A program made the translations under genes and the position numbers. DNA of 64,000 nt from contig NZ_AP014936.1 of assembly GCF_002355415.1 (NCBI RefSeq), forward strand, positions 1,364,001-1,428,000, in the 5' to 3' direction. How positions within the stretch are numbered: position 1 is the first letter of the stretch; the number at the start of each line of letters is the position of its first letter. This DNA is from Sulfurifustis variabilis. GTDB lineage: Bacteria > Pseudomonadota > Gammaproteobacteria > Acidiferrobacterales > Sulfurifustaceae. Positions 2,045 to 19,590 of this stretch are shown here, one piece after another. The notes under the pieces were generated by a model. That model searched no databases and was not told where the DNA came from. It saw only the letters and a list, made by a program, of their open reading frames with translations.

Positions 2045-2120
2045 GTCCCCATCGTCTAGAGGCCTAGGACACCGCCCTTTCACGGCGGCAACCGGGGTTC
2101 GAATCCCCGTGGGGACGCCA
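2045..2120 (+). tRNA. tRNA-Glu (anticodon UUC)
   Basis: This 76-nt cloverleaf has an encoded CCA end. The acceptor stem GTCCCCA pairs with TGGGGAC. The anticodon stem CCGCC/GGCGG encloses loop CTTTCAC with anticodon TTC (glutamate). The T-arm is GGGGTTCGAATCCCC. A strong terminator follows directly. Confidence 0.97.
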
Positions 2121-2792: not shown

Positions 2793-3650
2793 CTACCCTG
2801 CACGCGCCGTGGACGCGGCGATCTCCCTGTAGAGCCGTTCGTAGCGTCCGGCCACCTGGCGGCCGAAGAGGGGATCCTTGCGTGCCGCCATCATCGTGTC
2901 GACGGCGTTCCAGTCGTCCGGGGCGAGACGCGTTCCGAGCAGCGGGAACAGCTTTTGCTCCTCCATCTCCATGTGGGCGCGGAACCGCGCGACGTACTCG
3001 CGGCCCGGCTGTTCGAGCGCATGCCGCGGCAGCAGCACCCCGGCAACGGCGCCACGCAGGGAGTCGAGCAGGTCGCTGCCGCTGCGCGCGAGCGTGGCGT
3101 GCTGGCGTTTCAGGTCGGCCACGATCGGCTCGATGGCCGTGTCGGCGTTCGCGAGGCGCGCGAAGATCAAATCCTCCCACGGGTGATGAAAGCGGTCCGG
3201 GTACTCGCGCATGTAGCGCACGATGTCCTCCATCAGTTCGTAGTCGGGGCGCGCGGCGCGCTCGAACGCATCGAGCTGCCGCTCCAGCAGATCGAGCAGA
3301 AGGCGGAAGTTCACGTGCTCCTCGCGCAGACGGCGCAGTAGTGCGGCCGCGGGCCCGCTGGCGCTCTCTGCCGATTCCTGAAAAAACTCCAGATAAAACT
3401 CGACGGCGCCGAGCGGTTCGACCTGGTGCCGCTCCTCGGGCGGGACGACGCCGGGACGATGCGGCGTGAGGATGATCGCCTCCCGAGGCGTGTCGAGCGA
3501 GCGATAGCGGAGCCGGCCCGAACGCACCGTGATCCGCGCCCATGTCCGGGCTCTGGTCCGGTGGGAAAGCCCTAAACCGGCCGGTATCGAATGGTTGTTG
3601 TAGAGCGGGGTGCGGCCGGTCGCGATCAAGTCCGAAGGCAGCGCTTTCAT
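2793..3650 (-). CDS. DUF1971-hemerythrin fusion protein
   Basis: The 285-residue protein joins two domains. Residues 1-90 (MKALPSDLIATGRTPLYNNH, later HQVEPLGAVEFYLEFF) match the DUF1971/YeaR-like beta-barrel domain. Residues 100-285 form a four-helix hemerythrin domain with candidate iron ligands H112, H155/H156 with E159, H184, and the helix FRAHMEMEEQKLFPLL. Hemerythrin proteins of this type bind a di-iron centre and take part in NO or oxygen sensing or iron repair. It lies 40 bp downstream of nnrS and is probably the last gene of the NsrR-controlled operon. The exact function is unknown. Confidence 0.82.
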   Translation of the reverse strand: MKALPSDLIATGRTPLYNNHSIPAGLGLSHRTRARTWARITVRSGRLRYRSLDTPREAIILTPHRPGVVPPEERHQVEPLGAVEFYLEFFQESAESASGPAAALLRRLREEHVNFRLLLDLLERQLDAFERAARPDYELMEDIVRYMREYPDRFHHPWEDLIFARLANADTAIEPIVADLKRQHATLARSGSDLLDSLRGAVAGVLLPRHALEQPGREYVARFRAHMEMEEQKLFPLLGTRLAPDDWNAVDTMMAARKDPLFGRQVAGRYERLYREIAASTARAG

Positions 3651-7654: not shown

Positions 7655-8232
7655 TGCTCGAGTCGCTTCGCGACGGGTTATGACGCGGGGTTCCGCCCCC
7701 GCGCGACGGGTCGATTTCTTTGCTCGCCCAAAGAAATCGACGAAAGAAAGGGCGCCCCGATCGCTCGCCGCCCCTTCGGGGCGGTCCCCTGCGCTCCTCG
7801 CCTGTCCCGGGACGCTCGCCAACTCGCCGGGCGCATAAAACGCGCCTCGGGCTCGATCAAAGGCTCGCGCAATCCTCCCGGCCAGGCTCCGGTGCTCGGC
7901 GAGCTCAACGGGGACCCAACGGCAACCCACCTCAACTCGAAACGAAGAAAGTTGCCTTTCCGCGGTTTGGGGGCCCCGTATGGCGCGCCCGATCCTCGCG
8001 CTCCGAGCGCCGCGAGCCCGAAGGGCGACCGGCAGGGATGCCGGTCGGTCGTCCAGCCGGCGCAGGATGCGCCGTCTGGCGACCTCATAGCGCGAGGCAG
8101 CGAGGGGCGGGGGGTTTCGCGCCATTCGGGGCGTGCTTTCTTTGGCTACTTTCTTTGCACGAGCAAAGAAAGTAGCCCGTCGTGCGGGGGCGGAACCCCG
8201 CGTCATATAAACGTCGCGAAGCGACTCGAGTC
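7655..8232. mobile_element. Structured MITE-like element, complete copy (A)
   Basis: This ~578-bp non-coding element has terminal inverted repeats of roughly 110 bp. Both ends read inward CTCGAGTCGCTTCGCGACG, then a variable 4-7 bases, ATGACGCGGGGTTCCGCCCC, and a hairpin. The left-end hairpin (7711-7740) has a 12-bp stem TCGATTTCTTTG. The right-end hairpin (8143-8176) has a 15-bp stem GGCTACTTTCTTTGC with a 4-base loop. The stems differ in sequence but stay perfectly paired. The GC-rich interior has several more hairpins and no plausible gene; open frames across it are chance frames. A second, truncated copy lies at 18830 in opposite orientation. Confidence 0.8.
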
Positions 8233-18807: not shown

Positions 18808-18829
18808 CAGGGTGAGGGCAATAACCTAA

Positions 18830-19316
18830 CTGCTCGAGTCGCTCCGCGACGTGATATGACGCGGGGTTCCGCCCCCGCACGACGGGCTACTTTCTTTGCT
18901 CGTGCAAAGAAAGTAGCCAAAGAAAGCACGCCCCGAATGGCGCGAAAGCCCCCGCCCCTCGCTGCCTCGCGCTTTTGAGGTCGCCAGACAGCACATCCTT
19001 GTGCTGACTGGCGACCGACCGGGATCCTCCCGGTCGCCCTTCGGGCTCGCGGCGCTCGGAGCGCTCGGGTCGGGCGCGCCAGACGGGGACCCCACTGCGA
19101 CAGCACTTCCGTTTCAGGGCGGAGGTGGTTTGGGGTGAGTCCCCGTTGAGCTCGCCGAGCACCGGAGCCTGTCCCGGGGGAAATACGCAAGCAATGATCG
19201 AGCCCGAGGCGCGTTTTAAGCGCCCGGCGAGTTGGCGAGCGTCCCGGGACAGGCGAGGAGCGCAGGGGACCGCCCCGAAGGGGCGGCGAGCGATCCGGGG
19301 CGCGCTTTCTTTTGGT
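18830..19316. mobile_element. Structured MITE-like element, truncated copy (B)
   Basis: It is closely similar to copy A but in opposite orientation. It begins CTGCTCGAGTCGCTCCGCGA and has the same 15-bp hairpin GGCTACTTTCTTTGC/GCAAAGAAAGTAGCC (18885-18918). It runs through the shared interior (for example CGCCCCGAAGGGGCGGCGAG near 19270) but loses similarity after GCGCGCTTTCTTTT at about 19316, so the second terminal inverted repeat is missing. Confidence 0.75.
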
Positions 19317-19590
19317 GACTTTGGATGCGCGCCGTCCGTGGCGCGCCCCCTGCGGGCGCGCTCGTGAGGCGCGCGTCCAATTTCGCTCCCGGCGAAATTG
19401 TCTTTGCACGAGCGAAGACCCATTCGACGGGATCGAATGGGGACAGCCGCAGGCTGCCCGCAGGGCGAAGGCCCGGGAAGGCCTGAGTCCAAAGCCACCT
19501 GCCGTGGGTCAGCCACCCACAAGTACAGATTATTACTTCGACTGGCCGCCCGGAGGGCGGTCGACAACTAGACGGACTGCTCGCAAGCAC
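19317..19590. repeat. Run of short palindromes replacing the end of element B
   Basis: The 274 bp hold successive hairpins: TTGGATGCGCGCC with GGCGCGCGTCCAA, AATTTCGC with GCGAAATT, CATTCGA with TCGAATG, CAGCC with GGCTG, and CCGCC with GGCGG. No gene is supported. The stretch TCTTTGCACGAGCGAAGA recalls the element's end hairpin, so this may be a rearranged or nested terminus. Confidence 0.55.

Follow-up and report, generated by a model that had tools for sequence, protein, structure and literature searches.

We interpret the element E1, found in the 64,000-nt window (the whole stretch of DNA analysed, with a GC content of 69%), as a repeat-borne twin RNA locus that resembles the candidate RNA TwoAYGGAY and would carry a triple-helix cap at the 3' end of each RNA; taken together with a role as a stabilised CsrA sponge wherever CsrA exists, this is the explanation towards which we lean. 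Each half of the element, one per strand and facing outward, would encode a structured RNA of ~250 nt composed of a multi-hairpin 5' domain, an H-type pseudoknot and a short hairpin, in this order. A pyrimidine strand of 7-10 nt would lie in the major groove of the pseudoknot hairpin stem, forming U.A-U and C+.G-C triples, and the 5' domain of the plus-strand unit, like that of relatives from CsrA-bearing lineages, would present CsrA-type A(N)GGA loops. We only infer that the units are transcribed, that the RNA is stable and binds CsrA, and that the element is mobile: the RNA would be made either by read-through from a neighboring gene or from a promoter of its own, its 3' end would be shielded by the triple helix, and the shielded RNA would titrate CsrA. 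With the head-to-head palindrome, one complete sense unit would be made whichever strand is transcribed. The computation supports the pseudoknot pairings, the triplex register, the bias of GGA loops, their association with csrA, the head-to-head arrangement and the dispersal of copies. Judging from these sequence patterns, a function at the RNA level on the pseudoknot strand is likely.

The earlier note had described an element of ~0.58 kb with long inverted termini. This element is real: as a whole E1 is a 574-bp imperfect palindrome (66% self-inverse), whose ends include a 19-nt perfect outer repeat and an 82-nt arm pair (83%), with the coordinates given in Table 1. As was also claimed there, a perfect hairpin occurs at each end, the two differ in sequence, and bases changed between the two ends are compensated on both arms. 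The right hairpin gains the conserved 6-nt loop once its innermost C-G pair is opened. We likewise found no plausible gene in E1; the only long ORFs that cross it are high-GC shadow frames. The pattern TTTCTTTG-N{3,12}-CAAAGAAA occurs three times in the window and in none of 100 shuffles. Folding of the whole strands gave z-scores of about -15 (plus) and about -12 (minus), and the plus-strand unit (7965-8212) folds with z = -8.2 into a closed domain of several hairpins, after which comes the pseudoknot hairpin. The short hairpin 3' of the right pseudoknot has a counterpart on the minus strand at the left end. A clear GGA hairpin is absent from the minus-strand unit of E1; the copies E3, E4 and E7 retain one (CC-ACGGAA-GG). 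Apart from tRNAs, no Rfam family matched the window at the gathering level; two tandem tRNA genes are located at 1933-2005 and 2045-2117 (+).

Table 1. Features of E1 and of its partner copy E2 in window coordinates; pseudoknots and RNA units are predictions.
Feature	Position	Strand	Details
Whole E1, two outward-facing RNA-like units	7657-8230	.	Imperfect palindrome, folds
Left outer inverted repeat	7657-7675	+	Sequence CTCGAGTCGCTTCGCGACG; small hairpin in itself
Right outer inverted repeat	8212-8230	-	Perfect complement of the left outer repeat
Inverted arm pair	7679-7760 / 8126-8207		82 nt
Left perfect hairpin	7710-7722 / 7729-7741		13-bp stem, 6-nt loop
Right perfect hairpin	8144-8158 / 8163-8177		15-bp stem, 4-nt loop
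Left predicted triplex pseudoknot	7710-7754	-	X CGCC / X' GGCG; third strand TTTCTTT; stem GTCGATTTCTTTG
Right predicted triplex pseudoknot	8132-8177	+	X CGTG / X' CACG; third strand TTTCTTT(GG); stem GGCTACTTTCTTTG
5' domain of plus-strand unit	7973-8132	+	Closing arms GCCCCGTATGGCGCG (7973-7987) and CGCGCCATTCGGGGC (8118-8132)
Hairpin with CsrA-type A(N)GGA loop	8027-8046	+	GACCGGC-AGGGAT-GCCGGTC
Hairpin	8048-8083	+	Inner GGCGC-AGGAT-GCGCC at 8059-8073
Minus-strand unit, 5' domain and left pseudoknot	7676-7920	-	Fold z = -3.2
Short hairpin 3' of right pseudoknot	8179-8202	+	GCGGGG..CCCCGC
Partner copy E2	18829-19321	-	Pseudoknot at ~18885-18929, minus strand

The core is 44 nt long and has the form X(4) - spacer - TTTCTTTGG - NTAC - TTTCTTTG - X'(4)NN - CAAAGAAA - GTAN', where X pairs with X' in the loop and N pairs with N'. 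The hairpin loop, which measures 6 nt throughout the matches listed (2-12 nt were permitted in the search), pairs with the four nucleotides just upstream and thereby makes an H-type pseudoknot. The view that structure rather than sequence is kept, with a structured RNA as one reading, was strongly supported, except that what is conserved goes beyond a hairpin: a larger RNA-like unit has at its 3' end a pseudoknot that keeps a base-triple register. Compensation is visible between the two E1 ends, both in X/X' (CGTG/CACG at the right, CGCC/GGCG at the left) and in the stems (CTACTTTCTTTG and TCGATTTCTTTG). Across 53 distinct cores, 92.9% of cells are paired in the named structure compared to 80.6% in shuffles, and sliding the whole structure by 1-3 columns leaves 47-56% of cells paired. 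Changes on both sides were found at all four S1 pairs and at the four outer S2 pairs. The covariation score was 0.304 versus 0.090 in shuffles, and none of 500 shuffles reached the observed value; the score covers the core, the 5' domains being too diverged between genera for confident alignment. S1 alone has 72% of cells paired in a fixed register, and in several lineages its register is displaced by one base. The core has no entry in Rfam 15, and no description of it was found in the literature searched by sequence string and by topic.

In H-type pseudoknots the first loop lies in the deep groove of stem 2 and runs in the same direction as the 3' strand of that stem. Here a pyrimidine first loop faces a purine 3' strand, a combination that would allow U.A-U and C+.G-C triples. 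Being symmetric, the common tract AAAGAAA proves no triplex register, and the most common class, AAAGAAAG, which is unable to discriminate, was excluded from the register count. The informative variants are asymmetric pairs: AAAAGAAA with TTTTCTTT, AAGAGAAA with TTCTCTTT, AAAGAGAA with TTTCTCTT, AAGAAAA with TTCTTTT, and AAAAAGAA with TTTTTCTT. In 48 of the 49 informative distinct asymmetric cores the loop agrees better with the purine arm's parallel complement, and in one with a direct repeat, with four further ties; these counts cover distinct but partly related sequences and leave out one low-complexity G-rich match. Such a parallel match, as read from the letters, is the Hoogsteen register and not that of ordinary base pairing. 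The consistent parallel (Hoogsteen) complementarity between the pyrimidine tract and the purine arm leads us to predict a triple helix, and the asymmetric variants disfavor an interpretation of the tract as a direct repeat or a product of strand exchange. We consider it very likely that the predicted triplex pseudoknot forms at the core. The C+.G triples would require protonation, and the formation of an RNA triplex of this length in cells is a prediction.

The 5' domain connects these units to CsrA. In the regions 5' of 192 pseudoknots, A(N)GGA hairpin loops were counted 104 times in sense, on the strand of the pseudoknot, versus six times in antisense, with 9.6 expected from shuffles. The most common loop contexts (CATGGATG, CAGGGATG, ACAGGATGT and CACGGATG) conform to the CsrA/RsmE consensus, which is ANGGAN closed by C-G, and the loops fit (A)CANGGANG(U) on the predicted transcribed strand, as in CsrA-sequestering sRNAs. 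Among the copies of the source genome the GGA loop is kept while stem changes are compensated, as in GGCGC-AGGAT-GCGCC of E1, AGCAC-AAGGAT-GTGCT of E2 and GGCAC-AGGGAT-GTGCC of E4. The counterpart of the E1 hairpin at 8048-8083 thus has the loop ACAAGGATGT in E2 and ACAGGGATGT in E4, each in a compensated stem.

The csrA gene (PF02599) was detected in 17 of 36 pseudoknot-bearing genomes. GGA loops accompany 35 of 44 pseudoknots in the genomes with csrA, compared to nine of 51 in those without it; Fisher's test gave 1e-9 by pseudoknot, a unit that is not independent, and 0.006 by genome, and both phylogeny and the incompleteness of MAGs confound the association. Gammaproteobacteria and Negativicutes independently agree on it. 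Two Neisseriaceae-like genomes account for four of the nine exceptions, with loops (CGAGGACG, TTAAGGAA) that fit the consensus poorly; four more belong to a 1.8-Mb Selenomonadaceae MAG, which may simply miss the relevant contig, and the last to a Thiotrichales MAG. No GGA loops were found in Pasteurellaceae and in some other csrA-containing genomes. The pseudoknot also occurs without GGA hairpins in lineages lacking csrA; therefore CsrA could not be its sole role, and its own role would be more general, with protection of 3' ends, by analogy, as our preferred guess. In hosts with csrA, there is a good chance that these candidate RNAs bind CsrA, and the elements may then represent scattered, unusually stable CsrA sponges. 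The source genome has six PF02599 matches, of which three are strong and the others weaker and shorter; for a possible target of these RNAs this is an unusually large set of paralogues.

TwoAYGGAY (Rfam RF01731, clan CL00106) is a candidate RNA of 2010 that is reported from gammaproteobacteria, Clostridiales and gut metagenomes (PMC2864571), and CsrA binding was proposed from its loops (PMC4333381). Its two adjacent hairpins with GGA loops inside an outer stem resemble those of the present plus-strand unit. The plus strand of E1 has two such hairpins (loops AGGGAT and AGGAT), and E2 and E4 have AAGGAT and AGGGAT, respectively; in the copies of the source genome GGA is conserved, but the Y positions of AYGGAY are not. 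The gathering cut-off of RF01731 (a covariance-model score of 43 bits) is exceeded by two matches in one genome (G374); many further matches, in other genomes with the pseudoknot, stay below it. In nearly all of the 18 RF01731 loci examined, the pseudoknot or a variant of it follows immediately downstream, just after the point where the Rfam model ends; the exceptions are L260, which has no pseudoknot, and L254 and L258, which weakly resemble it. In the source genome (G000) and its relative G004 the covariance model finds no copy, even at E<1. We do not file the copies of the source genome as TwoAYGGAY because they are too diverged for this model, and from their sequences they appear to be its relatives or functional analogues. 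The present elements differ in their twin head-to-head arrangement, their predicted triple helix and their many copies per genome, which the consulted parts of the TwoAYGGAY papers do not mention.

A partner copy 11 kb away had been noted before and was located as E2 (88-89% identical to E1). Altogether, the genome (one 3.96-Mb contig) has about eight copies of a modular family, with a shared interior joined to outer ends of two kinds. E1 lies in a co-directional pair, between a citrate-synthase-family gene (prpC, by Pfam) and a gene that, from our own reading of the ORF, we take to be prpD-like. In the relative G012, ~11 bp with no element separate a prpC homologue (54% identity) from a prpD-like frame, and the element is therefore not fixed at that site. 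The flanks of the eight copies and those of 12 copies in G004 have no gene in common.

The exact core version was found in at least 120 stretches of named genomes, and the actual count exceeds this number. The matches listed include Caballeronia, Thiobacillus, Silvimonas, Neisseriaceae, Lysobacter, Stenotrophobium, Marinobacterium, Thioalkalivibrio and Pasteurellaceae, as well as Selenomonadaceae (Negativicutes) and Chitinophaga and Xanthocytophaga (Bacteroidota), so the core spans Proteobacteria, Negativicutes and Bacteroidota. Within the class, the hairpin occurs in 20 of 184 genomes (including G000 and G004) with up to 19 copies each, and a reversed-pattern control over the same 184 genomes had zero matches. 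Carriage by phages or plasmids was rejected: phage records had no core match, a single exact match was found among 2.9 million viral contigs (L283, IMGVR_UViG_3300021400_000027, positions 3334-3373 of a 180-kb contig), and the only plasmid records with the core are a few large Caballeronia replicons of 0.67-1.68 Mb.

Core pairs within 1.2 kb of each other are predominantly head-to-head with the pseudoknots outward (27 of 31), 397-804 bp apart and in several genera, and they form imperfect palindromes at non-orthologous intergenic sites. These features would also suit a MITE- or REPIN-like DNA element, whose end folds form in single-stranded DNA and are acted on by a transposase in trans, the GGA hairpins being incidental or later additions. 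The repeats are dispersed and multi-copy with long inverted ends, they occur as inverted pairs as in REPINs, and the empty prpC-prpD site and the lack of a common flanking gene agree with movement. In Caballeronia the inverted ends are long and sharp with unrelated flanks, and at one site of C. insecticola a different sequence lies between the same flanks. The MITE-like suggestion of the earlier note therefore holds for the distribution, but not for the other marks of such elements: no target duplication is visible in the flanks of the source-genome or Caballeronia copies, where the definition of the ends is uncertain, and no transposase was found beside the copies. None of the three Y1_Tnp genes of the genome lies near a copy, and the GTAG/CGTC REP survey does not contain the motif strings; a RAYT/REP origin was rejected on these grounds. 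A cognate neighboring gene was rejected as well, since none clearly recurs (the largest protein cluster has nine loci at varied distances). Because it also leaves the strand-specific CsrA-type loops and the csrA association unexplained, we consider the purely DNA-level reading unlikely, although it is not incompatible with the RNA reading. That the element moves in trans has, on its distribution, about an even chance.

Another reading is a cis-acting, BIME-like element of host mRNAs, in which the pseudoknot and hairpins would stabilise or terminate the transcripts of neighbors with no separate RNA. The intergenic position of all eight copies in the source genome, the location of E1 inside a co-directional gene pair and a palindrome that yields a sense pseudoknot in either orientation are all in its favor. 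Nevertheless, the copies have no same-strand preference with the upstream gene (gene calls are rough in these high-GC loci), no U-run follows the hairpins, and a conserved multi-hairpin 5' domain with GGA loops exceeds what a stabiliser needs, which makes this reading improbable. Chance palindromes or shadow coding are hardly credible: a GC content of 69% makes hairpins common, but the core is an A/T-rich pyrimidine-purine tract amid such DNA, with zero chance matches, a fixed loop and compensated changes, and this reading is already contradicted by the shuffles, the asymmetric triplex register and the covariation score. We retain the twin RNA locus as the preferred explanation.

Among known systems, the sRNAs CsrB, CsrC and RsmX/Y/Z likewise have several GGA-loop hairpins that would sequester CsrA or RsmA. 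However, they are known as few-copy sRNA genes with ordinary 3' terminators, whereas the present elements are multi-copy repeats with a predicted triplex pseudoknot. Telomerase RNA and the SAM-II and preQ1-II riboswitches contain H-type pseudoknots in which a pyrimidine loop occupies the major groove of a stem rich in A-U pairs; the core is likened to them by architecture, and no sequence relation is claimed. In contrast to these and to ENEs, the core has no ligand or poly(A) tail, its predicted triples include C+.G-C, and its S1 stem is only about 4 bp. ToxI-type antitoxin RNAs of type III toxin-antitoxin systems are also compact pseudoknots with base triples, but the present core has neither tandem repeats nor a recurring adjacent toxin-like gene. 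REP, REPIN and BIME elements and MITEs share palindromic units, inverted pairs, extragenic location and multiple copies; yet a single REP is 20-40 bp (PMC3733652), more than ten times shorter than the present element, and is not pseudoknotted, and the Y1 transposases of the source genome are not adjacent to the copies. ENE triple helices protect RNA 3' ends, including that of a plant retrotransposon RNA (PMC12501189). More speculatively, and with considerable doubt, the elements might form a cross-phylum class of repeat-borne, possibly self-spreading RNA loci with triple-helix-pseudoknot caps like those of plant ENE transposon RNAs, titrating or recruiting CsrA in csrA hosts, with a palindrome that gives a capped sense RNA in either insertion orientation.

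The predicted triple helix is compact and bacterial, covariation backs both its pairing and its triplex register, and it is present in at least three phyla with many copies per genome and tied to the CsrA network via the 5' domain. To our knowledge, most well-studied RNA triple-helix stabilisers are eukaryotic or viral. If the preferred reading is true, it supplies the candidate RNA TwoAYGGAY with a function and with the 3' half that it has lacked, it suggests that dispersed repeats can serve as CsrA sponges, and it makes the use of triple helices by bacteria to guard RNA 3' ends directly testable.

Several lineages exhibit particular forms of the motif. Chitinophaga skermanii (L088, L111, L147, L154, L167) has at least five pseudoknot copies and no detectable csrA; its copies have a short upstream hairpin and no GGA loops. 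Two species of Pasteurellaceae (L133, L184) have a start codon and then MAGHSKWANIKH (YebC-like) immediately after the pseudoknot; the motif may have a conserved use as a leader there. In three copies of one Luteimonas genome (L247, L249, L257), ~25 nt of the form GACCGGCT(T/G)CGCCGTTCGCTTCGCAGT are inserted inside the 6-nt pseudoknot loop, and this insert resembles another small repeat that targets the loop.
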